Shown piece after piece: positions 1 through 63,096 of a stretch of DNA of 63,096 nucleotides. Both the position numbers and the translations under genes were made by a program. Below the pieces are notes generated by a model that saw nothing but the letters and a program-made list of their open reading frames with translations, ran no database searches and had not been told where the DNA came from. The stretch's first letter is position 1; each line of letters opens with the position of its first letter. Origin of the DNA: a virus; the IMG/VR virus record IMGVR_UViG_3300008267_000043, positions 1-63,096 of that record. The stretch is one strand, 5' to 3'.

Positions 1-61
1 TTGACCCGGATCAGCTTTCTAAACATCTTGTGGAAGTACGTGATAGCAAGGCAAAACTTCT
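1..61. repeat. 61-bp terminal redundancy, left copy
   Basis: Bases 1-61 are identical to 63036-63096. The DNA polymerase reading frame passes through the joined ends without interruption. A short overlap inside a gene is what an assembler leaves on a circular contig, so this is more likely an assembly overlap than a physical terminal repeat. Confidence 0.9.
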
Positions 62-4840: not shown

Positions 4841-5715
4841 GTGAAATGACCCTGTTTTCTAAAGGTGGCAATACCCTTCCCGCGCACCTGCGCAACCTTG
4901 AGCTTGATGAAACCACGAAAGCCCTGATGGGTTCTGGCGGCGGTGGCGGCAAGCGTATCTCAATCAAAGGCGGCGTGTTCCGCATGATCGTTGACGGTAA
5001 AGAAATTGCACAGAATGAAGACCGTGCAATGAACATCGTTATCGTTGCGGCCAACGCCCATGTATCCCGTAGCTACTATGCAGAAACTTATGTTGAAGGA
5101 CAAATCCTCGCCCCTACTTGCTGGTCAAACGATGGAGTCTCCCCAGACACCAAAGTCAGCGAACCACAATCAGGTAAATGTGCTTCCTGCCCACAAAACA
5201 TCGCAGGCTCTGCTGAACAGGGCAAAGGTCGTGCTTGCCGTTTCAGCCAACGACTGGCAGTTACCCTTGAGAACGATCTCAAAGGTGACGTGTACCAACT
5301 GACCCTCCCTGCGCAGTCAATTTTTGGCAACGTTGAGAACGGCAAGATGCCCTTGCAGGCTTACGCTAAGTTCTTGGGCAGTCATGGTTTGCCAATCACA
5401 GCCATCGTGACCGAGATGCGTTTCGATACCGCAAGCGCAACACCCAAGCTGACGTTCAAAGCCGTGCGTCCTTTGGAAGCGGATGAGATGGCACTGGCAC
5501 AAGAAAAAGGCCAGTCAGCAGAAGCCAAGACTGCCATCGCCAACAACCCTGCAACCTTGGATGGCGCAAAGCCCAAGGCCGTAGCCCCACCTGCCCCCAA
5601 AGCAGAGGCAGAAGAATCAGAAGCGCCTGAAGCGCCAGCGGCTGAGCCAACCAAACGAGCCAAGAAAGCCGCACCCAAAGATGTGGCCGACATTCTGGAC
5701 GACTGGGCAGAGTAA
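4837..5715 (+). CDS. Probable single-stranded DNA-binding protein
   Basis: A 292-residue protein with the architecture of a phage SSB. It has a Gly-rich N-terminal loop (SGGGGGK), and a central domain with clustered Cys (TCW...SGKCASCPQN...GKGRACRFSQR) that could bind Zn as in T4 gp32. A Pro/Ala/Glu linker leads to a C-terminal acidic tail (VADILDDWAE), the part that in SSBs recruits partner proteins. Its place between DNA-binding genes and the primase-helicase agrees. The assignment rests on architecture and context, not on a certain family match. Confidence 0.65.
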   Translation: MSEMTLFSKGGNTLPAHLRNLELDETTKALMGSGGGGGKRISIKGGVFRMIVDGKEIAQNEDRAMNIVIVAANAHVSRSYYAETYVEGQILAPTCWSNDGVSPDTKVSEPQSGKCASCPQNIAGSAEQGKGRACRFSQRLAVTLENDLKGDVYQLTLPAQSIFGNVENGKMPLQAYAKFLGSHGLPITAIVTEMRFDTASATPKLTFKAVRPLEADEMALAQEKGQSAEAKTAIANNPATLDGAKPKAVAPPAPKAEAEESEAPEAPAAEPTKRAKKAAPKDVADILDDWAE

Positions 5716-5858
5716 GGAGTTCGGGAGGGGTTGTGCGCTCGTTGGGGCAACCCGGGTTTAGCTTGATCGCCAACCTTGCCAGAAGCGGGAAGCCGTGATG
5801 ACCGGAAACTTCACGGTAGCAAGACGGTAGTAAACCACAACTCCTCCCACCTAACACT
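5716..5858 (+). ncRNA. Candidate structured RNA element
   Basis: The 143-bp gap is closed by a 13-bp stem (5723-5735 with 5836-5848, one G-U pair). Inside are a perfect 6-bp hairpin CCGTGA/TCACGG (5793-5798 / 5811-5816), a GGCAA/TTGCC pairing (about 5746-5750 / 5777-5781) and two ACGGTAG repeats. It ends 10 bp before the ATG of the Xre-like gene, and no Shine-Dalgarno sequence lies between. It could be a cis-regulatory leader or a separate ncRNA. Confidence 0.4.
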
Positions 5859-6104
5859 ATGAACAACAGAGGCTATTCAAAGAAATTTGCCACGTCAAAC
5901 AGGCAAGCCGATCAGTCACATGTTGGTGTGCGGTTAGGGCGTGTTTGCATTGACAAGGATATCCCCGTACCGCACGTTGCTGAGTACCTTGGGGTTTCAC
6001 GACAGGCCGTGTATATGTGGTTTTTGGGCAGAGCCACGCCCCACCCAGATATGCGCTTGAAGATCATTGAGATCACCAAAAAACTTAAAGAAACCCAAAC
6101 CTGA
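5859..6104 (+). CDS. Xre/Cro-like helix-turn-helix regulator
   Basis: An 81-residue DNA-binding protein. The HTH is VPHVAEYLGVSRQAVYMWF (about residues 36-54) followed by GRATPHPD, as in Cro/C1-type regulators. No ribosome binding site precedes the ATG; instead the right arm of the structured element (CTCCTCCC) ends just upstream, so translation may be controlled by that element. It could be a repressor of early genes; its operator is unknown. Confidence 0.75.
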   Translation: MNNRGYSKKFATSNRQADQSHVGVRLGRVCIDKDIPVPHVAEYLGVSRQAVYMWFLGRATPHPDMRLKIIEITKKLKETQT

Positions 6105-9302: not shown

Positions 9303-12300
9303 CTACTCAAATTCCTTGATGGCTTCCTCAATGCGGGGGCGTAGCTTCTTGTCCAACTGAACCCCGTGGTACATCTCCTCAGAGATTTTGTCCCGCGCCT
9401 TGACTGAGGCAGTCAGGGTCTTGCCAGTGATGCCAAGCTCAGGGTACTTTTCACCCAGCGCATACAGTTTGTCCTCAAGCTCATTGGCGCGTTCATAGTC
9501 GCCCTCACGTTGTGCCACGTAGTATTTCTTGAGCAGGGACTTCTCTTGTTTGCGGATTTCGTCACCCATTTTCTTGGCGTATGCGTTGGTCTCGTATTGA
9601 GCCAGCAAGTCAGCAGGGGCAAAGCCCAGCACCTGCATGGCGGCGTTGTAACCGTTGACTTCACCCATCACTGGGTCACCACGTAGTGTATTCACACCTT
9701 CGGTGGCGTAACGCACACCCTTGAACACGTTGCGGATGGCGATAGGCAGCATGGCCTCAATGCCGCGCTCTATATGTCCGTCTGCAATCAGTTCTTTGGC
9801 ACGGAAGAAGTTGTTGACGATGGCGTACGGCGCACCAAGCACTGCCTCCACAATGCCGCTCAGGGCGCTGGCATCTGCTTTATCGGTTTTGTTTTCACGG
9901 TAGATCAAGTCCGTCCAGCCCACACGGTCAGCAATACCAAGGTTGGTGATGTAATTGACTGGGCCTTTGAACGCCATCTCACCCAAGTATCTGCGCATCA
10001 CAGAATCAAAGTCTTCTTCGTCATCATCGGTGGTTGCGTTGTATGCGGCTTCGGCAATCCAATACAAGGGTAAACCCTTGACGCCAGAAAACAGCGCCCC
10101 TATGAAGTAAATACCAGCCAACTGCCTACGTGCGGCGTAGATTTCCTCAAGTTCTTTACCTGTCGCGCCTTCAACGGGCAGCGAACGCTTTATGGTATTG
10201 AACAACATGTAGTACATGGTGAAGCTAAACCGCTTGAACACGGTAAGAACTTTGCCTATGTCTGACTGACCAATGCTTGGCCCGGATTCAGTGTGACCCG
10301 CACCGTGTGCAAACTCCACCAGACGGATGGCCTTTTCAATGGCTTGTTCCTTGTTGCCGCTCTTGGCCATTTCCAACTCATATGCGGCAATCGCCGTGAC
10401 CTCACGGTTGTAGCGTTCGGCTTGGTGGAACATGGAGGCTGACAAAATCGCAACCTTTTCGGCAACACCCTCGGTGCTTTTTGGGTCAAGGGCTTCATGC
10501 GCCATCGACTCCACCAACAGGCCAAGTTTGTCAAGGCGACCAAACAGGTCTTTGTACTGCGGCAACTTGCCGTTCCCAATCAAGTTCTCAACGGACATGC
10601 CCACACTGACAAACCCACGTTGCTCAACTTCTTGCCCGTTGATGTCCACAACCTTACGGGTGATACCACTCCCCCCAAACAACTTGGTAGCCGCCAAAAT
10701 TGCACGGCCCGCGTTGGCGAAGCCGTAAGTGCCCCCCAACTGTGGAAGAACGATCAAAGGCACTGAGGTGGTGTTGACCACTGCGGATGAGACGTTACCA
10801 GCCAAGTTGAAATAGAACGCACTGGAACTGGCCAACCGTGCCCAGCCAGCAAACGTGGGGTTCATTGCAAACTCACGGCGGCTCTCCAACTCTTGCCACA
10901 ACTCCTTGGCACGTACGGCGTCATCTCCGCGCAGCTCAGCGCCCTTTTCTTTCACTTCGTCCAAAAGTTTTTGCAGGGGCTCGTTGTACCGCATCCGGGA
11001 GAGTTGACGTGCCGTGCGATCAGTCACGCTGGCAAAGCCTTTGGCCACATCACGCTCATATCCGGGTGTACCCTTACGGGTTTGGAATGACTTCAACAGA
11101 CTGGTCTCTGGCAGGGCACTCACGATCAGCTCAAGGAACTTCTCAACTGCGGTGTCTTCTGCGCCGCCGTCCTTCATGATTTTGACGATCTGTGCGGCCA
11201 CGGTTCCACGTGGAACGTTGCGGGGCTTCATGCTCTCCACACGGGAGTATTCTTCAATGCCAGTATGACCTGCGGCTTCCGCTTCGGCTTTTGCCCTGCG
11301 GCGATCAGCTTGGGTGTCAAACAAACGTTGCACGGTTTCGTTTGTGGTTTTATCCACGTACTGCATCCAGTACTCACCAGAACGGAACAGCGGCGAATAG
11401 TGGTCGATGCCCATCTTGGTGATCTGGTCGATGATCTTCTGGTACGCAGTCATCGCCTGAGCTTTGTCTTCAAAGGTGGCATCCATGTGGGTACGGATGG
11501 AGTCTTTCAACTCTTTGAACAGCACCTTGAATGAGGCGAAGTGGTCGTTGTACAGCTTCTTCTCGGTCTCAGACAACTTGTTGTACCGCTTGTTCAGGTC
11601 ATCCCATGCGGCCAATTTCTCAGGACTGCCTGTGTATTTACTGCGTGGGGCGGCAGGGTTCACGTCCTCCAGTGTGGAGTCGTTCACCAAATCACACCAG
11701 AAGTCATAGTTTTGGGTTTGGGAGAACTCTTGCAGGCGTTCTTTCAACGGTTGGAGCTTGGCGGACAGGTTCTGGTAGTACCCAGCCATCTCATTCACCG
11801 TATCAGCAAACTCAACGGATGCGTTGCCAACCAGCTTGGCACCCACTTGGCCCAAGGCCGACAGGTTCAAAAACCGCTGGGAGAACGCACGGAGGGACAG
11901 CCCAGTTTTCTCCAAGCCGCCAAGGATTTCAGCGGCTCGCTCGGGGGTCACCAATGGTTGGTTGTTGATGATGTAGTCAGTGCCCTTGAAGATTGCGTCC
12001 ACAACTCCGGGGTTCTTGATTGATTGAGCGTACAGGGTGTTGCCTGTGCGTTGGTCAGGGGGCACACTCACTATCTCATTGAGTAACCGGTCAATCGTAT
12101 CTGTCACGCTCTCAGATGTTTTAGGTTGGAAGCCCAACGCCCGACGGATGACGTTCATGATCTTGTCCCAAACGGACAACTTGTTGCCGGGAGCGTACTT
12201 CTCGCTAAGCTGCGTGCGGAATGAATCGTTACTCCAAAACTCAGCCACAAACTCCTGTAAGTCTGTCGCGCCGTACGCACCGTCAATGTCTGCCTTCACG

Positions 12301-15293
12301 CCATCAAAAATCTGCTGTAACTGGCGAGTTACAGGATGTGAAGGGTTGGCAATGATGTGGGACAGGCCAGCATGAGCTGCTTCGTGCAGGATTTCATACT
12401 CGGTGGCGTTTGTTGGCAGGTAGATTGTGTTGGTCTCTGGGTCGTACTGGGCTTTCTCTGCGCCATACACCAGCTTTACATCGCCCATGAGCTTGGACAA
12501 CACACCAGCAATCTTGCCTGCAAACTCCGATGAGGGGCTGTCAGCCAAAGCATCCAAGGCACCAACCAGATCACCCCGCGCCAAGAGTTCAAGAACCGCA
12601 GGATGTGCCTCAGTGTGCAGTGCGGCAGTCTCTGGGGACGCATCGTATCGGTTACGACCATCATTCACGATGCCATCAAACGCATCATCAGTTGCTTCGC
12701 CAAAGTACACGTCGTCAATGACTTGTTGCAGGGAGGCTTTTTTAGCCGCCTGCTTTTCGGTCTTGACCTGCTCTTTGGTGGCCTTCTTTACTTTTTGCTG
12801 TTTTTCCAGCTTTGCAGTCGCAGTTTGGCTTCTGCGGTTTTCTTTTTCATAAAGGTTAATGTGCTTGTCCAAGAAGCTGACAGCTTCTTTTGACATGTTT
12901 GCACGAACCCAATCAGCAGCTCTTTTCGCATGAATGCCACCTTGTCCTTTAAAAAATTCGGCTTCGGCTTTGGTGCCGAACATCATCTCTGGCTCGCCTT
13001 TCAGCGAGGTCATTTTGGAATTACGGTACGCAGTAGGCTGATACACCAAGTCGTTGGCAATTGATTTCAACGCCAGCTCAGGGAGAACTTTGCCAAAGTA
13101 CGCCTTGGCATCTTTTTCCTCTTGGGTCAGCTTGCCCTTCTTGCCCAGCTTCTCTTGAGCAACGGCTAAATCTTGAGCAAACGTAGCAACAGTCGGTGCT
13201 TTACCTTCTTCGGCAACGGCAATTTCAGTAGCCGTACGAGGAGCCTTCTTTCGTCCTTTAGCAACCACGGGAGCGGCAGGAGCAACAGGAGCAGTGACAA
13301 CAGGAGCAGCTTCATTAGATACCTCGCTTACTGCAACGGCTGGCTGTCCTTCTCCGACAGCAAGCTCTCCAGCATTCTGCTCAGCAGGAACCACTCCATC
13401 TCGTTCAGATGTTGCAGGGGTTTCGGTGGTGGCTCCTGCAACGGGTTCGCTAACCACGCCAGTGCCTCCTCCACTTGTGTCGGTGACAGGTTCTGCAACA
13501 TTTTGATCTCCAAATGCAAACGCACGGGTGGCTGCTTGTTGCTTGGCCTTGGTAGGGGAAGTAACCTCAGCCTTCATTTCTGCGCGGGCATCTTCAACTT
13601 CTTTGCCACGGCCATCAGCATACAGGCTGTCCAAAACTTTGGCGTAGTTTTCTTCGTTAACGTTGGTCATGCCCACTTTGGATGGGTCTTCAATTGTCTG
13701 GATAAATTGGCGCACACCATCAGGTGTTGCCATGTCCACGCCAAGCAGGGAGTTGCCCAGTTTGGATGTGGCTGGGATACGCAGAGCCTTGAGAACATCA
13801 ACGGTCACTGGGTCAGCAGGGGCGTTCGTTGCCCCCATGTCGCCAAACGCGAACCCACGCATACCTTGCTCTTGGCTGACCTTACGTTCAGTCCGCGCCT
13901 TCTCGACCCCGGGGGCAAACATGCCGCCCGTACCGGGTGTTGGCTTGGCAGTTGAGAACGCACTCTCAGCGGCTTTCTTGGCGTCGATGGCGGCAATGTC
14001 GTCTTTGGCTTTCTGTACTTGGGCTTCCAAGTCAGCGTACGCCTGTGAACCGGGACGCTGCTCGTCCATGCGCGAAGCCAAGGCATTGAGTTCCATCTCA
14101 CGGGCTTTGCGTGCCTCGTTGTCTGCGATGGCGGCTTCCATGTCCGCTTGTGTGCGGCCAGCCTTGGGGAACTGCTTGTCAATCTGTTGTTGAAGTGCCG
14201 TGGGGCCACGTGTGGCTTGTGCCGCAGCTTCTGCCTGTGCTTGCGCATCAAGCGCTTCTTTGGCTTCCTTGGTAGTGGCAATGTCTTTCTTGGCTGTGCG
14301 GTACTCCGACACGCCTGTGGGCACACCAAACCCTGCGCCACCGATTGCGCCCTTGACGAACGCTTCTTTATATTGCTGAATGTTTTCAGGGGACAGCAGG
14401 TCTTTTGTGCTGCCCGCAATTTGTTCTGCGTAGGCACCGATGGCCTCTTGCGTAGATTCAGTCAAGCCTTCCGTAGCGGCAGACTTGGTAGCGGCTGTAG
14501 CGATGGACTTCCACACTTTCGGTGCGGCACCGGATTCTTTGGCCAGCTTCTCAATGACCTTCAACTTGCCATAAGGCCCGAGCGTATCCAGCACGTTACC
14601 GGGCACTACTGAGTCCAATGCGGCACTCAAGCCACCTGTCAAGGCAGCAAGGCCGGGTTCAAACTTACCGGTTTCACGGTAGATGCCTTCAAAGATTTCA
14701 GGGGCGTTCTGGGCGTATGAGCCCAAGTACACACCGCCGTACATGCCAGCACGGCCACCAGCTTCAGCAGCTTTTGTAACTCCAGCCAAGGCCGCACGTG
14801 TGGGAGGGCCAGCTTTTGTTGCAGCTTCTAACGCCGCACGTCCAGCAATACGACTACCCACCATGCTGCCGCCAACACCGGGAATGATTGCAGTTGCCGC
14901 AGTGGGCACCAGCTCGCCAAGGGTTTCTGTGGCGTATTGGGCGGCTTCAAATGGACTGGTAACTTCTGTGTACGACTTGAACTGTGTGGGGTATTTGCGC
15001 TCCAACGCCTCGCGGCTGGCCTGCGCTTCATCCATTTGTTGCTTGGAATAGTCTTCAAACCCCAACGCACTGCCAGCCATTGCTGGGAGGGTATCGGCCA
15101 AAGCGATACCTGTTTCCCCCAAAGAACGCATGGCCCCACGTTTAAAAATTGTGCCCAAACTTGCTTCAGGCTTTGGAACTGGGAAATCATATTTTTCCGC
15201 AAGCTTTGTCACCAGTGACTGAAACTGCTCTGGGGATAGCCCATCGGGGAATGAAACATCCCCGATCTTTGGAAACTTAATGATTGTTGGCAT
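9303..15293 (-). CDS. Giant polyvalent virion protein with HExxH peptidase motif
   Basis: A 1996-residue protein, last gene of the late arm. The N-terminal third has hydrophobic Gly/Ala-rich stretches (about residues 120-350, TAATAIIPGVGGSMVGSR) like membrane-inserting ejection proteins. The middle has a Glu/Ala/Lys-rich helical region and a zincin motif ILHEAAHAGLSHI near residues 965-977. The C-terminal half is a long helical region with hydrophobic helices (FSFTMYYMLFNTIKRS). The size, multidomain build and HExxH suggest a polyvalent protein carried in the virion and injected with the DNA, acting on host peptidoglycan or proteins. Catalysis is inferred from the motif only. Confidence 0.75.
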   Translation of the reverse strand: MPTIIKFPKIGDVSFPDGLSPEQFQSLVTKLAEKYDFPVPKPEASLGTIFKRGAMRSLGETGIALADTLPAMAGSALGFEDYSKQQMDEAQASREALERKYPTQFKSYTEVTSPFEAAQYATETLGELVPTAATAIIPGVGGSMVGSRIAGRAALEAATKAGPPTRAALAGVTKAAEAGGRAGMYGGVYLGSYAQNAPEIFEGIYRETGKFEPGLAALTGGLSAALDSVVPGNVLDTLGPYGKLKVIEKLAKESGAAPKVWKSIATAATKSAATEGLTESTQEAIGAYAEQIAGSTKDLLSPENIQQYKEAFVKGAIGGAGFGVPTGVSEYRTAKKDIATTKEAKEALDAQAQAEAAAQATRGPTALQQQIDKQFPKAGRTQADMEAAIADNEARKAREMELNALASRMDEQRPGSQAYADLEAQVQKAKDDIAAIDAKKAAESAFSTAKPTPGTGGMFAPGVEKARTERKVSQEQGMRGFAFGDMGATNAPADPVTVDVLKALRIPATSKLGNSLLGVDMATPDGVRQFIQTIEDPSKVGMTNVNEENYAKVLDSLYADGRGKEVEDARAEMKAEVTSPTKAKQQAATRAFAFGDQNVAEPVTDTSGGGTGVVSEPVAGATTETPATSERDGVVPAEQNAGELAVGEGQPAVAVSEVSNEAAPVVTAPVAPAAPVVAKGRKKAPRTATEIAVAEEGKAPTVATFAQDLAVAQEKLGKKGKLTQEEKDAKAYFGKVLPELALKSIANDLVYQPTAYRNSKMTSLKGEPEMMFGTKAEAEFFKGQGGIHAKRAADWVRANMSKEAVSFLDKHINLYEKENRRSQTATAKLEKQQKVKKATKEQVKTEKQAAKKASLQQVIDDVYFGEATDDAFDGIVNDGRNRYDASPETAALHTEAHPAVLELLARGDLVGALDALADSPSSEFAGKIAGVLSKLMGDVKLVYGAEKAQYDPETNTIYLPTNATEYEILHEAAHAGLSHIIANPSHPVTRQLQQIFDGVKADIDGAYGATDLQEFVAEFWSNDSFRTQLSEKYAPGNKLSVWDKIMNVIRRALGFQPKTSESVTDTIDRLLNEIVSVPPDQRTGNTLYAQSIKNPGVVDAIFKGTDYIINNQPLVTPERAAEILGGLEKTGLSLRAFSQRFLNLSALGQVGAKLVGNASVEFADTVNEMAGYYQNLSAKLQPLKERLQEFSQTQNYDFWCDLVNDSTLEDVNPAAPRSKYTGSPEKLAAWDDLNKRYNKLSETEKKLYNDHFASFKVLFKELKDSIRTHMDATFEDKAQAMTAYQKIIDQITKMGIDHYSPLFRSGEYWMQYVDKTTNETVQRLFDTQADRRRAKAEAEAAGHTGIEEYSRVESMKPRNVPRGTVAAQIVKIMKDGGAEDTAVEKFLELIVSALPETSLLKSFQTRKGTPGYERDVAKGFASVTDRTARQLSRMRYNEPLQKLLDEVKEKGAELRGDDAVRAKELWQELESRREFAMNPTFAGWARLASSSAFYFNLAGNVSSAVVNTTSVPLIVLPQLGGTYGFANAGRAILAATKLFGGSGITRKVVDINGQEVEQRGFVSVGMSVENLIGNGKLPQYKDLFGRLDKLGLLVESMAHEALDPKSTEGVAEKVAILSASMFHQAERYNREVTAIAAYELEMAKSGNKEQAIEKAIRLVEFAHGAGHTESGPSIGQSDIGKVLTVFKRFSFTMYYMLFNTIKRSLPVEGATGKELEEIYAARRQLAGIYFIGALFSGVKGLPLYWIAEAAYNATTDDDEEDFDSVMRRYLGEMAFKGPVNYITNLGIADRVGWTDLIYRENKTDKADASALSGIVEAVLGAPYAIVNNFFRAKELIADGHIERGIEAMLPIAIRNVFKGVRYATEGVNTLRGDPVMGEVNGYNAAMQVLGFAPADLLAQYETNAYAKKMGDEIRKQEKSLLKKYYVAQREGDYERANELEDKLYALGEKYPELGITGKTLTASVKARDKISEEMYHGVQLDKKLRPRIEEAIKEFE

Positions 15294-15295
15294 GA

Positions 15296-17749
15296 TTATT
15301 CTTGGAGGAAATCAAACACAGAGCGTGCACCACCACTTGCCACAGGTGCGGCTGAGTCCGCATTTTGCTGCATCACGTCATTGATGTACTGGTTGCGTAA
15401 CTGGTTGTACTGATACTGCCCTTGAATTGGGCCAAGTTGCTGCACCAACTCCGCTTGTTTACGGGCGTTACGGTTATCAAAGTCCGCAATTGCTTGGCGA
15501 CGAACACCCGCCAGCCGTGCTTGTGCTTGTGAGCTTTGAGCGGCGGCAGAGGCTCCCTTGACACCCAGCAACTGGTTGAACTGCTGGGCTTTCTCTTTAC
15601 GGCCTTCGCGGGCCTCAGCCAACGAACCTTGTTGGTAAGCACCTTGTTGAGCAAGTTCCCGCTTCCTGAGTTCAAGCTGCTGTTGTTGCATCTGCAACTG
15701 ACGGACGTTGCTGGCAAACTGTGTAGCGGCTGCGGTGTCGCCTTTGGAAAGCGCAACCTTGTACTTGGTGTACTCCATCTGCATACGAGCGTCGTTTGCG
15801 TCAGCTTCTTGCATGAGCTTTTGGCTTTCCTTGGCGGATGCGGCCAATGTTGGGGACGCACCTGCGGCACTCTCCAAGAACCGGGCACCGGGCTTCGCAG
15901 CACCTGCGGCCATTGCAAAGCCAAACTCAGCCAAGGCTTTACCCAAGGCTTGCTCTTTGATTTCTTTGGACTTGCCAGACTGTTTGTCAATCATGGCTTG
16001 AAGTCCCTTCAAGTCTTCTGCGCTTTCAGACGCAAAATACTCTTTGGCTTTTTTGATCTCAGCAAGCAGGTCATCGCTTGTGTAGCCCTTTTCAGCGGCG
16101 GCGGCTTTGATTCCCGCTGGGATTGCGGGTAACTCTGCGCTGGGTTTGGCTTTGGGCTCAGCTTTGGCTGCTGGCAGTTTGATATCCGATGCGGCGTTGT
16201 ACCCTTGATACGAGCCACGGCCAGCACCCGCTGTGGATGTTGTTGGTGGTTTTGCTGCGGTAGTGGTTTTGGCTTTTTCTTCAGCCACGCTTTTTTCATA
16301 CCGTTGGCGGTTTTCTAAGGCAGCTTTGGGGGTCAGGAAGTCTCTGATACCACTCAAGGTAGGTAGGTTGTAATCTTCAGGGGTCAACTCATCAGGGTCA
16401 ACCACGGCCCCACGATCAGCAAACGCCACGATGCCACCATCGGCATACTGCTCCATCAAGCGGTCAGCGTACTGGTCAGTGATGCCAGCGCCCAAGCCAT
16501 TACGCATGGAGGCACGTTCTGCCAATTCAGCTTCAATCATCTGCAACTGACCAACATCACGTCGGTTCATGGCGGCTTCACGGGCAGCAGCAAGCTGTTG
16601 ATCGCTCAACTTGGCCAGAATGTTCTCAACGTTGCCTTCGCTGGTCACGCCACCATCAGCATACGAATTCACTTCGCCGCCTTCAGCCATGAACTTGCTC
16701 AAGCCATAGATGCCGGTACCCAAGCCAGCAATTTGACCAAGCGCAGAGCCTTCTGGCTGATACATCTGGGTAACGCTGGATGAACCTGTTGGAGTACCAC
16801 GCAACAAGTCGGACATGAAGCCCAACTGTTTGTACGGATAATTCTCTTGGTTAAGGAAGTCCTGATACGCAATATCTAAACCGCGCTGGCGTTGCGCCTG
16901 CTCCATACCACCATATGCAGACTGGAGCTTGTTGATGTCCATGCCTTGCTGGAACTGCTGACCACCCAACTGGCCAAGAGTACCGGCTGCTTGCAGACCA
17001 GTTTGAAGTCCTTGCATACCCAAGCCAGCGCCATACTGACGAGACTGCTCACCCAACTGCTGGGCTTGCATACGACGAGCTTGGTCGGCGTTGAATTGTG
17101 CTTGTGCTTGCTGGAATGACTGATTCAAACCCTGAGCTTGGATATCACCTTTTTGCAGCGCCAGATTGCGTGCAGCCTCTGCATCTGTAATTGCTTGACG
17201 TGAGCCGCCAAACGCGCCTGATCTGACTGCTTGTGCGCCACGTTGGGTGCCAGCAATATCTGCTTGGCGTTGTGCTTCGCGCTGTTGAACATCCACCACA
17301 TTCTGCATGTAGGGGTTCATGTACTGTTCAGCGGCACGATTACCGAACTGCCCCCCTGAGAAACGCCCAGCCTGATAGTTAGTACCCAACGCGCCCATGC
17401 CAGCCATGCCAGCCAAGCCAGTAGCCGTACCTAATTGAGATGCGGGGGCCATTGTGCTTGCGCCAGTCATTGCTTTGTTTTGGAGGTCACCAAATCCAGC
17501 AATTCGGGATTTATCGTATGTTTGATATGGGTTTTGGCCAGTATCAGTTAAGGCTTCGCCTTTTGCCAATATGTTTTTGGCATACGGTTTGGCCCAATCT
17601 GGCAAGTCAGAAGTTTGGGTTGTTTGTTGGGTGGTGCTACCGCCACCGCCACCACCGTCACCATAAACAATACGCCCGCCTTCAGCGCGGGTTACTGAAT
17701 CGCCCAAGGGCTCGCCCAATGCGTAAAGTTGGCGACGTGAATAGCTCAT
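15296..17749 (-). CDS. Large Gln/Ala-rich virion (DNA-ejection type) protein
   Basis: An 817-residue protein with a Gly-rich N-terminus, a long Gln/Ala/Arg helical central part (about residues 120-300, QQREAQRQADIAGTQRGAQ) that is probably coiled coil, an acidic linker, and a second Gln-rich helical region. Repeated (M)AEGGEV/YADGG turns resemble those of the neighbouring 702-residue protein. Composition and position between tail and giant late proteins match internal or ejected proteins of podoviruses. No enzymatic motif seen. Confidence 0.65.
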   Translation of the reverse strand: MSYSRRQLYALGEPLGDSVTRAEGGRIVYGDGGGGGGSTTQQTTQTSDLPDWAKPYAKNILAKGEALTDTGQNPYQTYDKSRIAGFGDLQNKAMTGASTMAPASQLGTATGLAGMAGMGALGTNYQAGRFSGGQFGNRAAEQYMNPYMQNVVDVQQREAQRQADIAGTQRGAQAVRSGAFGGSRQAITDAEAARNLALQKGDIQAQGLNQSFQQAQAQFNADQARRMQAQQLGEQSRQYGAGLGMQGLQTGLQAAGTLGQLGGQQFQQGMDINKLQSAYGGMEQAQRQRGLDIAYQDFLNQENYPYKQLGFMSDLLRGTPTGSSSVTQMYQPEGSALGQIAGLGTGIYGLSKFMAEGGEVNSYADGGVTSEGNVENILAKLSDQQLAAAREAAMNRRDVGQLQMIEAELAERASMRNGLGAGITDQYADRLMEQYADGGIVAFADRGAVVDPDELTPEDYNLPTLSGIRDFLTPKAALENRQRYEKSVAEEKAKTTTAAKPPTTSTAGAGRGSYQGYNAASDIKLPAAKAEPKAKPSAELPAIPAGIKAAAAEKGYTSDDLLAEIKKAKEYFASESAEDLKGLQAMIDKQSGKSKEIKEQALGKALAEFGFAMAAGAAKPGARFLESAAGASPTLAASAKESQKLMQEADANDARMQMEYTKYKVALSKGDTAAATQFASNVRQLQMQQQQLELRKRELAQQGAYQQGSLAEAREGRKEKAQQFNQLLGVKGASAAAQSSQAQARLAGVRRQAIADFDNRNARKQAELVQQLGPIQGQYQYNQLRNQYINDVMQQNADSAAPVASGGARSVFDFLQE

Positions 17750-38083: not shown

Positions 38084-38995
38084 TCAGGTCGAACCTGAAG
38101 AACCCCACATACCCAATGGGTCAGACCAGCCGAAGCTGTAACGCTCACGGGCCTTGTAACGGACGTTGCCAGTGTCGAAATCACCGTCCATTGAGTTCTG
38201 GAGAGGTGTACGAACGAAGTGCTTCAGACCGTTAGGCACGTCAGTGGTCAGGAACCATGCGCTGGTGTCTGTCAAGAAGTGGTTGACAGTGTAGCCTTCA
38301 GGGATTGCGCCCATCTGCTTGATCGCGTTGATGTCGTTGTCAGCAGTTGCCACACGCAGTTCGGTGTCCAACAGGCGCTTGGCCGTGAACATCAAAGCAG
38401 GAGGAACAATCAGCTTCTTGGGTTTTGCTGCGATCAACAAACCACGCTCATCAGTCCAAGCGGCGATTTGAATAACGGCGGCTTCCAAGGAAGTCTCGTT
38501 CAAATCAACTTGAGTACCGGGAGTGTTGCTGTTGACGCCACCAGAGATCAGGGGGTGGTTGGCGTTGAACAAAGACACGCCGTCGCCACCGGGGTAGCTG
38601 GAGCTGAAGCCATTGTTCAGGACGGCAGCAGCCTTGACCTGTTTGGTGTATGCCATAGCACGGGCCAAAGACTTGGTGTAACGGCCAGACAAGCTGTCGT
38701 ACAAGTTATCTTCAATCGCTTCTTCAGTGATTGAGAAACCCAAGGCGATGGTTTCGTGGGTGTAGCGGGTTGACCATGCTTCTTGTGCATTGTCATAAGC
38801 GATGGCGGAACCTTCGTTTTTGACAGGTGCGGCAGAGAAGCCGGACAGTTTGGTTTCTTCTTCAAACGAACGCTCAGAAGTCTCTGTTTCGTAGATTTCT
38901 TTGTGTTCTTCGCCGTAACGAGCGTACTCCATACCGAACAAAGCGTTCAGACCGGGGAGCAACTCTTTCAGCAGTTGTGCGCGTGAAATAGCCAT
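38084..38995 (-). CDS. Major capsid protein
   Basis: A 303-residue protein with the features of an HK97-fold capsid protein from podovirus-like phages: MAISRAQLLKELLPGLNALF, ERSFEEETKLSGFSAAPVKNE, TRYTHETIALGFSITEEAIE and YSFGWSDPLGMWGS at the end. It lies behind scaffold and portal genes and directly before a strong terminator, as expected for the most highly made virion protein. Confidence 0.88.
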   Translation of the reverse strand: MAISRAQLLKELLPGLNALFGMEYARYGEEHKEIYETETSERSFEEETKLSGFSAAPVKNEGSAIAYDNAQEAWSTRYTHETIALGFSITEEAIEDNLYDSLSGRYTKSLARAMAYTKQVKAAAVLNNGFSSSYPGGDGVSLFNANHPLISGGVNSNTPGTQVDLNETSLEAAVIQIAAWTDERGLLIAAKPKKLIVPPALMFTAKRLLDTELRVATADNDINAIKQMGAIPEGYTVNHFLTDTSAWFLTTDVPNGLKHFVRTPLQNSMDGDFDTGNVRYKARERYSFGWSDPLGMWGSSGST

Positions 38996-41155: not shown

Positions 41156-41566
41156 TTATGCTGCACGGGTGATGCCACGGGGGTCTTCCACAACCGCTTC
41201 CACGCTGTCATCGTTGATGATGCGGAACTCACGGCCATGAATCTTCAGGCGGGTGCCTGAATTGGGGCGGACGATGACGAAGTCACCTTCCTTGCAACTC
41301 GGCCCGTGGGGGAACCGAGTGGCGTCCTTGTATGCGTCGGGGCCAAGTTTGACCACAAACAATACAGGGGTCAGCACTTCTTCATAGTGCATGGACTGAC
41401 TGGATTTCACAATCCCAATGTCGCTGTCCGCATATTCTTCCATTGCTTCTGGAACAACAGTCAAGACGTGAAAGGTTTTGGGGTCAGGCAACTGCTTGGC
41501 TTTTTGCTCCGCAGTTGTGTTCAAGATACCCGACAGGTCAACTGCCGCAACGTCAAATTCAGTCAT
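41156..41566 (-). CDS. GroES/Cpn10-like co-chaperonin
   Basis: A 136-residue protein with a Cpn10-like core: a loop region (DIGIVKSSQSMHYEEVLTPV), then VVKLGPDAYKD, KEGDFVIVRPNSGTRLKIHG and FRIINDDSVEAVVEDP, matching the strand order of GroES. T4 gp31 is the classic phage example, needed with host GroEL to fold the capsid protein. Its position just before the scaffold and capsid genes fits that role. The start is ATG 41566, overlapping the upstream stop. Confidence 0.75.
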   Translation of the reverse strand: MTEFDVAAVDLSGILNTTAEQKAKQLPDPKTFHVLTVVPEAMEEYADSDIGIVKSSQSMHYEEVLTPVLFVVKLGPDAYKDATRFPHGPSCKEGDFVIVRPNSGTRLKIHGREFRIINDDSVEAVVEDPRGITRAA

Positions 41567-41756
41567 CAGATTTCTCCATTTTTTGCACAAGGTCTTCAAT
41601 GATGTTTTCTGCGTAGTTCAAACCTTGGATAACTCCGCAGATTCTTCGGTACTCTTCAATGTGGTCAACTCGTCCAGCAGCCACGTAAGCTTCACGCTCT
41701 TGTTTCAGCTTCTGGATTTCCTTGACCGTCAGGGACAACAGTTTGTAGTCGTTCAA
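41559..41756 (-). CDS. Small coiled-coil protein
   Basis: A 65-residue helical protein (MNDYKLLSLTVKEIQKLKQE..., NIIEDLVQKMEKSDD). It overlaps the portal gene by 4 bp and the co-chaperonin gene by 8 bp. No family recognised; probably a small head-assembly factor. Confidence 0.6.
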   Translation of the reverse strand: MNDYKLLSLTVKEIQKLKQEREAYVAAGRVDHIEEYRRICGVIQGLNYAENIIEDLVQKMEKSDD

Positions 41757-60086: not shown

Positions 60087-60713
60087 ATGGGAACAATCGC
60101 AGATGAACTGAAAAAAGTTATGACTCAATGGGACAACACGTCCACAACCGAAACCAACGCAAAGGAAACAACAGTGAACACAACCACAAATAACTCTGAA
60201 CAACGCATGACTATCCGTGACAAGTTGATGCTCATCCTCAACGCCAACCCCGGTGTGAACGGTGTAGAACTCTGTGACTTGACAGCAGAAAGATACCCCG
60301 AAGTTTCAAAGGGCTCGCTCACGTCCACCATAACTCAGCTTGCACAACAGCACTACGCGACACGCAAGCCAGCCACCGTCAACAACCGTGCATCGTATTG
60401 CTACTACCCAGTGGATGACTCGACACGCAAGGCGCTGGTGGCAGAGGAAGAACGTCAGTTGAAACTTGCCCGTGCCCGTGCAGAGAAAGCCCGTGCCGCC
60501 AAAGCCGCCAAAGCCGCTGAGAGACAAGCTGAGGTTGAACCCAACGAACCTGCGCCAGTTGTTACGCAAGCACCTGCACCTGCGCCTGCGCCCACACCAG
60601 AACCTGCGCCAATCATCAAGTCAACGTGGGATGCGAAGACTGCACTGGAAGGCATCAGTGTGTTGCAAGCACGTGAGCTGTACAACGAGCTGAAAAACAT
60701 TTTTGGCAACTGA
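60087..60713 (+). CDS. Winged-helix protein with Ala/Pro-rich tail
   Basis: A 208-residue protein. Residues about 40-110 look like a winged helix (TIRDKLMLILNANPGVNGVE, then SKGSLTSTITQLAQQHY and YCYYPVDD). It is followed by an Ala/Lys/Arg helix (ARARAEKARAAKAAKAAERQ), a Pro/Ala linker and a short C-terminal helix. DNA binding is likely; it may be a histone-like or regulatory protein. Confidence 0.7.
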   Translation: MGTIADELKKVMTQWDNTSTTETNAKETTVNTTTNNSEQRMTIRDKLMLILNANPGVNGVELCDLTAERYPEVSKGSLTSTITQLAQQHYATRKPATVNNRASYCYYPVDDSTRKALVAEEERQLKLARARAEKARAAKAAKAAERQAEVEPNEPAPVVTQAPAPAPAPTPEPAPIIKSTWDAKTALEGISVLQARELYNELKNIFGN

Positions 60714-60780
60714 GGTGAGCAAGAACTACACATGGGGGTGGACAGACCCCCGTGTACAACCAACAGGAGAGGGGAGAGAT

Positions 60781-61062
60781 ATGGCGATATCAACAGACAG
60801 AGGGATTGGCTCATGGCATCGTGAGGGTTTTGAAAACCACGTCGTCAAAGAAGTCAGGATGCTCTTGGACAAAGCGGAAGACCGACATAGAAACGATATG
60901 GAATCGCTCATGGCTAAGTTTGACAGCCAGATGCACGACCTACGCAGGAAAGTTAACACCACAAATGGGTTTTACACATGGCTGATTGAGGTGTACCCAG
61001 AGACAGTGGCGCAGTACAAGGCGTTGATGGACTTACAAAAACTAGGAGAGAAACATGAATGA
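60781..61062 (+). CDS. Tandem family member 1 (W-x-x-x-Y-P motif)
   Basis: A 93-residue protein. A helical part (VVKEVRMLLDKAEDRHRNDM) is followed by the family motif FYTWLIEVYPETVAQYKALM and a short tail. ATG 60781 has AGGAGAGGGGAG upstream; a GTG at 60715 in the same frame is a weaker alternative. First of five consecutive genes with the same C-terminal motif and different N-termini. Function unknown. Confidence 0.7.
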   Translation: MAISTDRGIGSWHREGFENHVVKEVRMLLDKAEDRHRNDMESLMAKFDSQMHDLRRKVNTTNGFYTWLIEVYPETVAQYKALMDLQKLGEKHE

Positions 61063-61321
61063 AGGTGAATGGAAAGCAAACCACTTTGCAGACCCAGATG
61101 TACGTAAAGCCATGAGGCAGTTGCAGGACATGCGCTATGACTTGCAGATACAAGTTGAAGCCCTGACGGATTACACCGCATGGATTGAGGCAACGTATCC
61201 CAACATCAAGGCTGAGTACAAAGCTATCCAAGATTTGGAAGAAGCCAGCAGAGAACGTTCGCCACTTGGGTTTGCCCAAGCGCAAGCGAAAGCGGAGGGT
61301 AGCCATGTCTCTTATGAATAG
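61055..61321 (+). CDS. Tandem family member 2
   Basis: An 88-residue helical protein with the family motif YTAWIEATYPNIKAEYKAIQ followed by DLEEAS, then a 20-residue extra tail. A coiled-coil-like stretch (VRKAMRQLQDMRYDLQIQVE) precedes the motif. It overlaps neighbours on both sides. Function unknown. Confidence 0.75.
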   Translation: MNEGEWKANHFADPDVRKAMRQLQDMRYDLQIQVEALTDYTAWIEATYPNIKAEYKAIQDLEEASRERSPLGFAQAQAKAEGSHVSYE

Positions 61322-61640
61322 CATCGGACTTGGGGGCATATTTGGTAGCCAAGCCAGCCAAGGAAGTATTCAGAACCTACCATCATCACAAGCAACACAA
61401 CTGGGGCAAGGCATGTGGGTTACCACATCCGGCAACACAAGTGGGCAGATGTTAACGGGGGGAATACAGGCACAGCAACAAACTAGCACCCTAACACACA
61501 GTTTGTTAGAAGAAAATAAAAAGTTGTTGGTGGAAATCAAAGACGAACTGCTGGACATGAAGAAGTGGCTGATCGCCACGTACCCAGACATATACAAACA
61601 GTATGTGTGCGTCAAACAACTTGAGGAGGCAAGCAAATGA
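61305..61640 (+). CDS. Tandem family member 3
   Basis: A 111-residue protein with a Gly/Ser/Gln-rich N-terminus (residues 1-60), a helix LLEENKKLLVEIKDELLDMK and the motif KKWLIATYPDIYKQYVCVKQ then LEEASK. ATG 61305 has GGAGGG upstream. Function unknown. Confidence 0.75.
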   Translation: MSLMNSIGLGGIFGSQASQGSIQNLPSSQATQLGQGMWVTTSGNTSGQMLTGGIQAQQQTSTLTHSLLEENKKLLVEIKDELLDMKKWLIATYPDIYKQYVCVKQLEEASK

Positions 61641-61972
61641 GCACAATGAAATCCCCGTACGAGGCGTACACCGCACGGTCAGCCATGAAACCCAATCAGG
61701 GGGTAGCAAGTGACCTCATCAGCAACGTACGATCACAGGGTGAGACAACATCAGAACTGTTCAGCATGTGCCTACAAATGTTGAATGACCATGCACTGCA
61801 CATCGACAGATTGAAACTGCAACTACATGAGACCAATGAGTTTATGAAGTGGGTATCTGAGACGCACCAAGAAGCGTTCAGTGAATACAAGGCAATCAGA
61901 GACCTTACCGTTGCAAGTGGTGGGGCTAACTCTACATTGACCAACATGTTGAAAGAATGGGGGGAAGCATGA
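61637..61972 (+). CDS. Tandem family member 4
   Basis: A 111-residue protein with helix LFSMCLQMLNDHALHIDRLK and the diverged motif FMKWVSETHQEAFSEYKAIR then DLTVAS. The Y-P of the motif is H-Q here, and there is an extra C-terminal tail. Function unknown. Confidence 0.75.
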   Translation: MSTMKSPYEAYTARSAMKPNQGVASDLISNVRSQGETTSELFSMCLQMLNDHALHIDRLKLQLHETNEFMKWVSETHQEAFSEYKAIRDLTVASGGANSTLTNMLKEWGEA

Positions 61973-62232
61973 ACACAATCGAACGGGCAAACCACCACTA
62001 TTACAGCTCAACTGCGGCAAGAGGGTATACCCCAAGCATTGACCTCAACAGCCAAATAAACAACGCAGTACAAAACATCAACATGACTTTGAGCGACCAT
62101 GCCAATCGTCTTGATTCGCTTTTCATGGAACTCAATGACATGCGGGGTTTTTACATGTGGATAGTGAACACGTACCCTGAACATCTGGAACAGTACCGTG
62201 CGATTTTTGATTTGAAGGAAGCAAGCAAATGA
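61969..62232 (+). CDS. Tandem family member 5
   Basis: An 87-residue protein with helix VQNINMTLSDHANRLDSLFM and the motif FYMWIVNTYPEHLEQYRAIF then DLKEASK. It overlaps the gene before and the one after by 4 bp. Function unknown. Confidence 0.75.
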   Translation: MNTIERANHHYYSSTAARGYTPSIDLNSQINNAVQNINMTLSDHANRLDSLFMELNDMRGFYMWIVNTYPEHLEQYRAIFDLKEASK

Positions 62233-62462
62233 ATAAAACCCCACAAATCATGGGTGAAGTTTTTGATGACGGCCAATTCCGTGGGCACGGCATAGCGCCC
62301 TCTGATGTGCATATCGAAAACGGGATAAAGGTGGGGAGATACGTCCTGCTGGATTCTGATGAGGACACGTTCTACATTTTTATTGACACGGGACAGGTGG
62401 GGGCGTTCAAGAAGTCAGACTTTGAAGCCCACGTTGCCGCTTTCTTTGGGTTGAACTTCTGA
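62229..62462 (+). CDS. Small acidic protein before polymerase
   Basis: A 77-residue beta-rich protein (MNKTPQIMGEVFDDGQFRGH..., GRYVLLDSDEDTFYIFIDTG). It follows the tandem family and its stop overlaps the ATG of the DNA polymerase by one base, so the two are translationally coupled. Function unknown. Confidence 0.65.
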   Translation: MNKTPQIMGEVFDDGQFRGHGIAPSDVHIENGIKVGRYVLLDSDEDTFYIFIDTGQVGAFKKSDFEAHVAAFFGLNF

Positions 62463-63096
62463 TGGATGTAATCACACTGGACTTTGAAACGTACTACACC
62501 AACACTGACTTGGGCTTCAAGAAGCAAACGACTGAGGAGTACGTACGTGACCCACGCTTCCACGCCATCGGTGTGGCGGTCAAAGTCAATGACGGGGCAA
62601 CACGTTGGTGTTCAGGCACACACAACCAGATCAAGGCGTTCCTCAAAACCTTTGACTGGAACAACGCCCTTGCGGTGGCACACAACGCCATATTTGATAT
62701 GGCCATCTTGAACTGGCACTTCGACATTCGCCCCAAGGGGATTGCAGACACCCTGAGCATGGGACGTGCTATTCATGGCATCGAGGTGGGCAACAGCTTG
62801 GACAAGCTGACTCAACATTACAAGTTGGGGCAAAAGGGCGACGACACCAGATGGGCAATCAACTTACGGCGTGAGGACTTCACAGCGCAACAGCTTGCTC
62901 AGTATGGGGCGTACTGCGTCAATGATGTGAACCTGACCTATGACTTGTTCAGGACGTTGATGCCCATGTTCAAGATGTCCGAACTCAAGCTGGTTGACCT
63001 GACCATCAGGATGTTTACAGAACCTGTATTGCGCCTTGACCCGGATCAGCTTTCTAAACATCTTGTGGAAGTACGTGATAGCAAGGCAAAACTTCT
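62462..63096 (+). CDS. DNA polymerase family A, N-terminal part with proofreading exonuclease
   Basis: First 211 residues of the polymerase that continues at position 62 of the window. It is a DnaQ-like 3'-5' exonuclease domain with all three motifs: Exo I VITLDFETYY (Asp7, Glu9), Exo II AVAHNAIFDMA, Exo III YGAYCVNDVNLTYD. The exonuclease residues are intact, so proofreading is expected. Confidence 0.93.
   Translation, partial: MDVITLDFETYYTNTDLGFKKQTTEEYVRDPRFHAIGVAVKVNDGATRWCSGTHNQIKAFLKTFDWNNALAVAHNAIFDMAILNWHFDIRPKGIADTLSMGRAIHGIEVGNSLDKLTQHYKLGQKGDDTRWAINLRREDFTAQQLAQYGAYCVNDVNLTYDLFRTLMPMFKMSELKLVDLTIRMFTEPVLRLDPDQLSKHLVEVRDSKAKL
63036..63096. repeat. 61-bp terminal redundancy, right copy
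   Basis: Identical to 1-61; see the left copy. Confidence 0.9.

Follow-up and report, generated by a model that had tools for sequence, protein, structure and literature searches.

What does a phage keep in five short genes that end alike and begin differently? This question is raised by positions 60781-62232 of IMG/VR record IMGVR_UViG_3300008267_000043 (63,096 bases, referred to here as the window), where five consecutive, overlapping genes are located on the plus strand, close to the DNA polymerase gene. A first-pass annotation, made from the letters alone, had described them as tandem paralogues sharing one C-terminal motif.

The first 61 bases of the window (1-61) are the same as its last 61 (63036-63096), and because of these identical ends the record very probably stems from a closed circular molecule of about 63,035 bases that was opened within the polymerase gene. 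Structural genes (terminase, portal, major capsid protein, DNA ejection protein) are found on the minus strand and replication genes on the plus strand. The polymerase is distantly similar to those of Pseudomonas phages Rollin and KPP25 and of Rhizobium phages, in which the neighbours of the polymerase gene were inspected by annotation only. The capsid protein, which is 83-89% identical across 13 related contigs, resembles the capsids of Planktothrix phage Pag-Yong1, phage DSL-LC04 and Roseobacter phages CRP-901/902, as well as those of Pelagibacter phages HTVC023P/027P and of one Alcaligenes phage. The features referred to below, outside the array itself, are:

15296..17749, minus strand: DNA ejection protein (phrog_4287, E 8e-23)
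38084..38995, minus strand: major capsid protein (phrog_371, E 6e-23; Phage_capsid_4, E 9e-16)
60087..60713, plus strand: putative winged-helix-like protein of 208 aa with an Ala/Pro linker
62229..62462, plus strand: conserved gene of 77 aa, ending in AFFGLNF, which precedes the polymerase in most relatives
62462..63096, plus strand: DNA polymerase I-type (PolA) gene, N-terminal exonuclease part, which continues at 1-1301 over the cut of the circle

The gene for the 208-aa protein, whose sequence appears winged-helix-like, forms the upstream border of the array slot in most relatives. The 77-aa gene was also found just before the polymerase in phages that have no array (dN/dS 0.05). Elsewhere on the minus strand, we observed a gene for a 1996-aa protein (9303-15293), the last third of which matches DarB-like antirestriction proteins (phrog_10089, E 1e-74), and, between the portal and capsid genes, a GroES-like co-chaperonin gene (41156-41599; phrog_3188, E 8e-7) that is also annotated in related isolates.

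The overlaps between successive array genes measure 8, 17, 4 and 4 nt. The fifth gene shares 4 nt with the 77-aa gene, and the latter touches the polymerase start at 62462. The array is a single overlapping coding unit together with the replication genes. Its earlier placement just before the polymerase holds as far as adjacency is concerned, but the 77-aa gene separates the two. All five proteins carry a C-terminal module of about 28 residues, [GF]-x-x-W-[ILV]-x-x-[TV]-Y-P-x(5)-[QE]-Y-[KR]-A-[ILV]-x-D-L-x-x-A-S, in which the W is invariant across the five members. Leave-one-out HMMs, each built on four members and searched against all 1212 window ORFs of at least 30 aa, recovered the left-out M1 to M5 at E-values of 1.1e-9, 2e-10, 1.2e-6, 4.9e-7 and 4.5e-11, respectively, while the best non-member was found at 0.94. 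The module is homologous in all five genes, well beyond chance, and the description of five tandem paralogues with a common C-terminal motif is confirmed by these profiles (E 1.2e-6 to 4.5e-11). The members are:

60703..60780, plus strand: in-frame upstream extension of M1, with a possible start at TTG 60703 or GTG 60715; translation uncertain
60781..61062, plus strand: M1, 93 aa, with a G-I-x-S-W-H head, a long helix and the core module NGFYTWLIEVYPETVAQYKALMDLQK
61055..61321, plus strand: M2, 88 aa, with a GEWxxNxFxxPDVRK head, the core module and the C-tail GFAQAQAKAEGSHVSYE
61305..61640, plus strand: M3, 111 aa, with a Gly/Gln/Ser/Thr-rich head from MSLMNSIGLGGIFG and the core module KKWLIATYPDIYKQYVCVKQLEEAS
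61637..61972, plus strand: M4, 111 aa, with H-Q for Y-P in the core and an NDHAxxID head common with M5
61969..62232, plus strand: M5, 87 aa, the most regular member, with a/d heptads at residues 30-65 and the core module GFYMWIVNTYPEHLEQYRAIFDLKEAS

The replacement of Y-P by H-Q in the fourth member, already reported in the first-pass annotation, was seen in our alignment. The heads had been said to differ completely, which does not hold: M4 and M5, the closest pair, both have a DHAxxID head, and each head has a conserved orthologue elsewhere in the phage group.

To be counted as a family match, a hit had to lie above the curated cut-off or have an E-value below 0.001. When 24 members were scanned against Pfam, NCBIfam and PHROGs, there was no such match; the best E-values (about 0.002-0.005) were obtained with one or two members each, under unrelated names. 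Among the weak names, FeeM, Peptidase_M7 and Chibby were discarded as chance matches. The profile phrog_13633 appeared promising for the M3-type end, but the same search also gave matches in unrelated control genomes. A candidate clamp-binding motif in the QYKALMDL end was considered and dropped. The module profile did not match any PDB sequence, tblastn against isolate phages gave no family member, and scans of bacterial genomes, which reach close relatives only, gave no relative. Foldseek returned 0 PDB matches and, among the predicted viral structures of BFVD, a best E-value of 5.3, a weak test where helices are long. The array family is new to all libraries searched, and the earlier view that no known family explains it is borne out by the Pfam, NCBIfam, PHROGs, PDB and Foldseek searches. 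Nothing relevant was found in the literature on tandem small phage paralogues.

AlphaFold2, run with 22-24 family sequences for M1 and M5, predicted helices at residues 10-71 and 73-92 of M1 and at residues 26-68 and 70-86 of M5. The pLDDT exceeded 90 over most of the helices and was around 50 in the heads, with a pTM of just 0.46, so that the angle between the two helices is not fixed by the models. The predicted helix break falls at the Tyr-Pro of the motif. In the 35 residues before this break, a heptad pattern was significant in M1 (p = 0.003) and M5 (p = 0.005), and individually non-significant in M2, M3 and M4; most members in other phages follow one common heptad register relative to the Trp. 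Because of the predicted long helix, the heptads of M1 and M5 and this common register, coiled-coil homo- or hetero-oligomers of the array proteins are plausible. The idea of one scaffold displaying different heads is supported in part, namely for the common module and the different heads.

To describe the distribution of the family, viral contigs of IMG/VR were scanned with the polymerase, M5 and four subfamily alignments, and an iterated profile was then run over all ORFs. Members were found in about 25 further contigs (given L numbers here), all from one environmental phage group. The slot is kept, in the order winged-helix-like gene, array, 77-aa gene, PolA; the polymerase follows the array in 13 of the 13 contigs checked by alignment, and, searched over complete records as long as 67 kb, the five-member profile of the window places members in this slot only. 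Many arrays have a single copy, those of L034, L036 and L106 have two, those of L007, L094, L096 and L098 three, that of the window five and that of L033 six.

Orthology of the heads was assessed by a comparison limited to the sequence before the module. Counterparts of the M1 head were identified in L007, L033, L038 and L039 (E 3e-19 to 5e-7), of the M2 head in L033, L034, L036, L096 and L098, and of the M3 head in L007 (L007_1653). The heads of M4 and M5 match the last two genes of L033, and that of M5 also matches L007 (E 4e-26). The order M1-M2-M2b-M3-M4-M5 is kept in all arrays of at least two genes, with some members missing. From the head orthology between phages and the constant gene order, we conclude that the array is ancient and ordered, with members gained or lost one at a time.

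Other small genes were observed in this variable region. In L034 and L036, a 156-aa protein is encoded between the array and the polymerase (5547-6023, plus strand); it ends like sigma-70 region 4 (TPRESKVLRFRFGI...TRERIRQIEMKAIRKLKHPE). Moreover, this slot just upstream of the polymerase holds, in many relatives including L008, L013, L018 and L034, a second small family that recurs across phages (FP...GMTLRDYFAAKAMQ...AYxxADAMLxARE).

The array must have been gained or lost at least 10 times to fit a tree built on the N-terminal sequences of 75 polymerases. Only one of L013 and L015 has the array, their polymerases being identical in N-terminal sequence, and the close polymerase neighbours L021, L027, L030 and L094 carry 0, 1, 1 and 3 copies, respectively. 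As identical or near-identical polymerase N-terminal sequences occur with and without the array, the latter is not an obligate partner of the polymerase, and the specific link to this enzyme that had been considered at first is not supported.

Compared with L007, M1, M3 and M5 are 57-66% identical, with M1 and M5 at 62-66%, versus 93% for the polymerase and 96% for the 77-aa protein. The corresponding dN/dS values were 0.35 for M1, 0.25 for M3 and 0.20 for M5, versus 0.08 for the polymerase and 0.05 for the 77-aa gene; on these ratios, M1, M3 and M5 are under purifying selection. Synonymous divergence from L007 was 0.8-1.5 in the array and 0.43-0.47 in the two neighbouring genes, which agrees with an exchange of array genes between phages. 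The array genes are thus functional, dispensable and quick to evolve. Being accessory, patchy and fast-evolving is what would be expected of counter-defence genes, for which it is suggestive only.

When all heads were searched against all ORFs, the search returned, beyond relatives, the phage's own major capsid protein; resemblance to two or three short parts of this protein recurs among the variable ends. Among about 480 window ORFs, the capsid protein was the top match for 10 of the 44 head or tail segments, versus 2 of 440 shuffled segments; these counts take in the segments that had prompted the idea, the resemblance having been noticed before formal testing, and since the 44 segments are interrelated, with the M1 upstream-extension class added by hand, they are to be read as about six independent subfamilies.

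Profiles built on capsid proteins only (window plus six isolates) were then run over 14 complete or large genomes, comprising 14,121 ORFs and 22 array members. Segment A corresponds to capsid residues 52-68, GFSAAPVKNEGSAIAYD, and segment C to residues 283-301, RERYSFGWSDPLGMWGSSG. For segment A, the sole non-capsid matches at E ≤5 were three array members, the top 3 non-capsid ORFs of the 14,121: the C-tail of M2, the M2b tail of L033 (GYGAAQVKASGQAVKYE) and an M3-type head of L094. For segment C, array members ranked second and third among the non-capsid ORFs of the 14 genomes. In a wider set, the M1 extension of L007 (RYAGGWTDPRALYG) was matched at E 0.0016 and a head of L037 (QYTVGWSDPAGVFGAGGS) at E 0.011; the capsid end of the Alcaligenes phage (RYSFGWTDPRALFGSPGA) is still closer to the L007 peptide. 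One head of L106 carries both stretches, as GWNDPR and KAEGSAI. Codons differ between the capsid stretches and the array ends, which argues against recent copying. Taken singly, the matches are short and weak (E 0.0016 to about 3); it is their joint enrichment that counts as evidence.

Within the window, the likeness is limited to the M2 tail and the uncertain M1 extension, and the heads of M3, M4 and M5 are not capsid-like. The M1 extension carries NYTWGWTDPR, which resembles the capsid C-terminus RYSFGWSDP; compared with L007, its indels are in multiples of 3 and GWTDPR is kept, with a dN/dS of 0.69 on 24 codons only. Similar stretches also occur outside the family. In the array-less L051 (2391-3017) and L055 (2296-2868), an early protein of about 200 aa, unrelated to the array, contains ARYSFGWNDPR or ARYSFGSSDPR, which are segment C-like and similar to the C-terminus of the capsid protein, and an unrelated small protein of the array-less L053 carries a segment A-like tag (GFGKAPIKMEGG). 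A motif scan located a related stretch, TRAEGGRIVYGDG, at the N-terminus of the DNA ejection protein. This protein begins with MSYSRRQLYALGEPLGDSVTRAEGGRIVYGDGGGGGG and has a KxEGxxIxY-type stretch in common with the capsid protein and array tails. Head matches to other virion proteins, mostly Gly- or Ser-rich, were discarded. Because a PDB search with the capsid protein gave no match, the two segments were placed only by analogy with phage GP4 (PMC9698820), according to which they would lie in the N-arm/E-loop base and the C-arm.

Of all these observations, the likeness to the capsid protein offers the most promising lead on the array. Our preferred reading, to which we assign a probability of about 0.3, is that the array encodes early counter-defence or host-takeover adaptors using capsid-like bait peptides. 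These would be small, lineage-specific, dispensable accessory proteins, produced along with the replication proteins. The C-terminal module, that is, the end of the long helix, the Tyr-Pro break and a second short amphipathic helix, would serve as an oligomerization or docking unit, and the flexible, exchangeable end as a peptide ligand, in several cases one that imitates stretches of the phage's own capsid protein. Made before the capsid protein, the oligomers would show capsid-like baits and other ligands to host factors, such as sensors triggered by capsid protein, which the baits would block or pre-empt. Different heads would address different host factors, leading to duplication, head diversification and patchy presence. 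We infer the oligomerization, the binding partners and the counter-defence role of the array, as well as its early timing, the latter from operon context. As precedents, CapRel-SJ46 is triggered by the phage major capsid protein (PMC9712102); DSR2, a sensor of structural proteins, has an inhibitor, DSAD1 (PMC11087589); and tifA of T4 is a counter-defence gene that is tandemly amplified in the phage (PMC9391042). A bait resembling the trigger could also activate a sensor rather than block it, which counts against the bait model. Put more generally, and just as tentatively, one helical docking module would have been tandemly duplicated and combined with exchangeable linear peptides resembling the capsid N-arm/E-loop base, the capsid C-arm and the N-terminus of the ejection protein; proteins made early would pass for late virion proteins before host sensors or the assembly machinery, and similar tags would have been grafted onto unrelated small proteins in relatives.

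The main rival reading is that the proteins dock on the capsid or are packaged with it. The ends would bind the sites on neighbouring subunits that receive the capsid protein's own N-arm/E-loop base and C-arm, leading to attachment to procapsids, a role in assembly, or packaging and injection as for T4 internal proteins, which are themselves diverse, with the capsid-targeting sequence alone in common (PMC3012670). This reading is possible, if doubtful. It would account for the likeness of the ends to two distinct parts of the capsid protein and to the N-terminus of the DNA ejection protein, itself a virion component that is injected, and for similar tags, as a targeting tag would give, on unrelated small proteins of the array-less L051 and L055 (C-like) and L053 (A-like). 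However, the array genes lie in the replication unit, outside the structural module; the same capsid protein occurs in array-less phages, so the array is not needed for assembly; the universal part is the C-terminal module, many members being without a capsid-like tag; and neither a protease-site nor a scaffold family was matched (best phrog_172, E 0.02, with one member). Tandem small genes of unassigned role are common in phages, and the array might consist of ordinary fast-evolving accessory genes, the capsid likeness being due to low complexity (Gly-, Ser- and Lys-rich ends) and chance, or being functionless debris of old recombination. The weak individual E-values and the proneness of short disordered ends to drift are in line with this, but we regard it as unlikely, given the top-3 enrichment by capsid-only profiles in 14 genomes, the excess over shuffled segments, the L106 head with both stretches, the codon differences, which speak against recent copying, and the purifying selection on M1, M3 and M5.

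Two further readings start from the neighbouring genes. In one, the proteins would be accessory adaptors of the replisome, with a module that docks either on a phage protein (the polymerase or the 77-aa protein) or on a replication protein of the host, and with heads that recruit other factors. The constant position of the array, flanked by the winged-helix-like gene and the polymerase, and its overlapping reading frames would suit such adaptors; yet the array comes and goes beside an identical polymerase N-terminal sequence, with the 10 or more gains and losses counted above, and evolves unlike the neighbouring replication genes, which change slowly (dN/dS 0.05-0.08), making this reading quite improbable. 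The other, that coiled-coil dimers act as transcription or regulation factors or as nucleoid proteins, would suit small helical proteins encoded beside a winged-helix-like gene, with good heptads in M1 and M5. As no DNA-binding family was found and the heads are not consistently basic, we consider it the most improbable of all.

If the capsid resemblance is functional, the array would offer a concrete and inexpensive test of whether phages make early decoys or docking tags that imitate their own structural proteins. It would then bear on how phages that make abundant capsid protein avoid capsid-triggered immunity, or on how small proteins enter capsids without a classical targeting sequence. 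Independently of this, an unannotated family whose orthologous types stay in a fixed order would aid the annotation of this environmental phage group.

Among known systems, scaffolding proteins of the P22 and HK97 type also combine a helical rod, a C-terminal helix-turn-helix unit and flexible ends. The array differs from phage scaffolding proteins in position, copy number, dispensability and sequence, the phrog_172 match mentioned above being insignificant. A scaffolding gene would be expected in the head module and to be needed for assembly, whereas the array is located about 22 kb from the capsid gene, in the replication unit.

The T4-type internal proteins (IPI, IPII, IPIII and Alt) are likewise small, diverse, non-essential and variable between relatives, and are joined by one short common sequence; IPI and IPIII at least counter host defences (PMC3012670, PMC9391042). 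Their common part is an N-terminal targeting peptide that the prohead protease removes, whereas that of the array is the C-terminal helical module, the only stretch common to all members, among which no common N-terminal peptide was found. In addition, the array genes lie with replication genes, and no sequence similarity between the two groups was found.

CapRel-SJ46 (PMC9712102) and DSR2/DSAD1 (PMC11087589) provide examples of structural proteins as immune triggers and of small phage inhibitors, and it is at this point that a capsid-like bait would act. In the literature searched, we found no inhibitor built from capsid-like peptides and no link between CapRel and the array. Finally, the dmd-tifA locus of T4 (PMC9391042) also contains tandem copies of a small gene in one place. 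The T4 copies are recent and identical, whereas those of the array are ancient and divergent, and persist as orthologous types in a fixed order.
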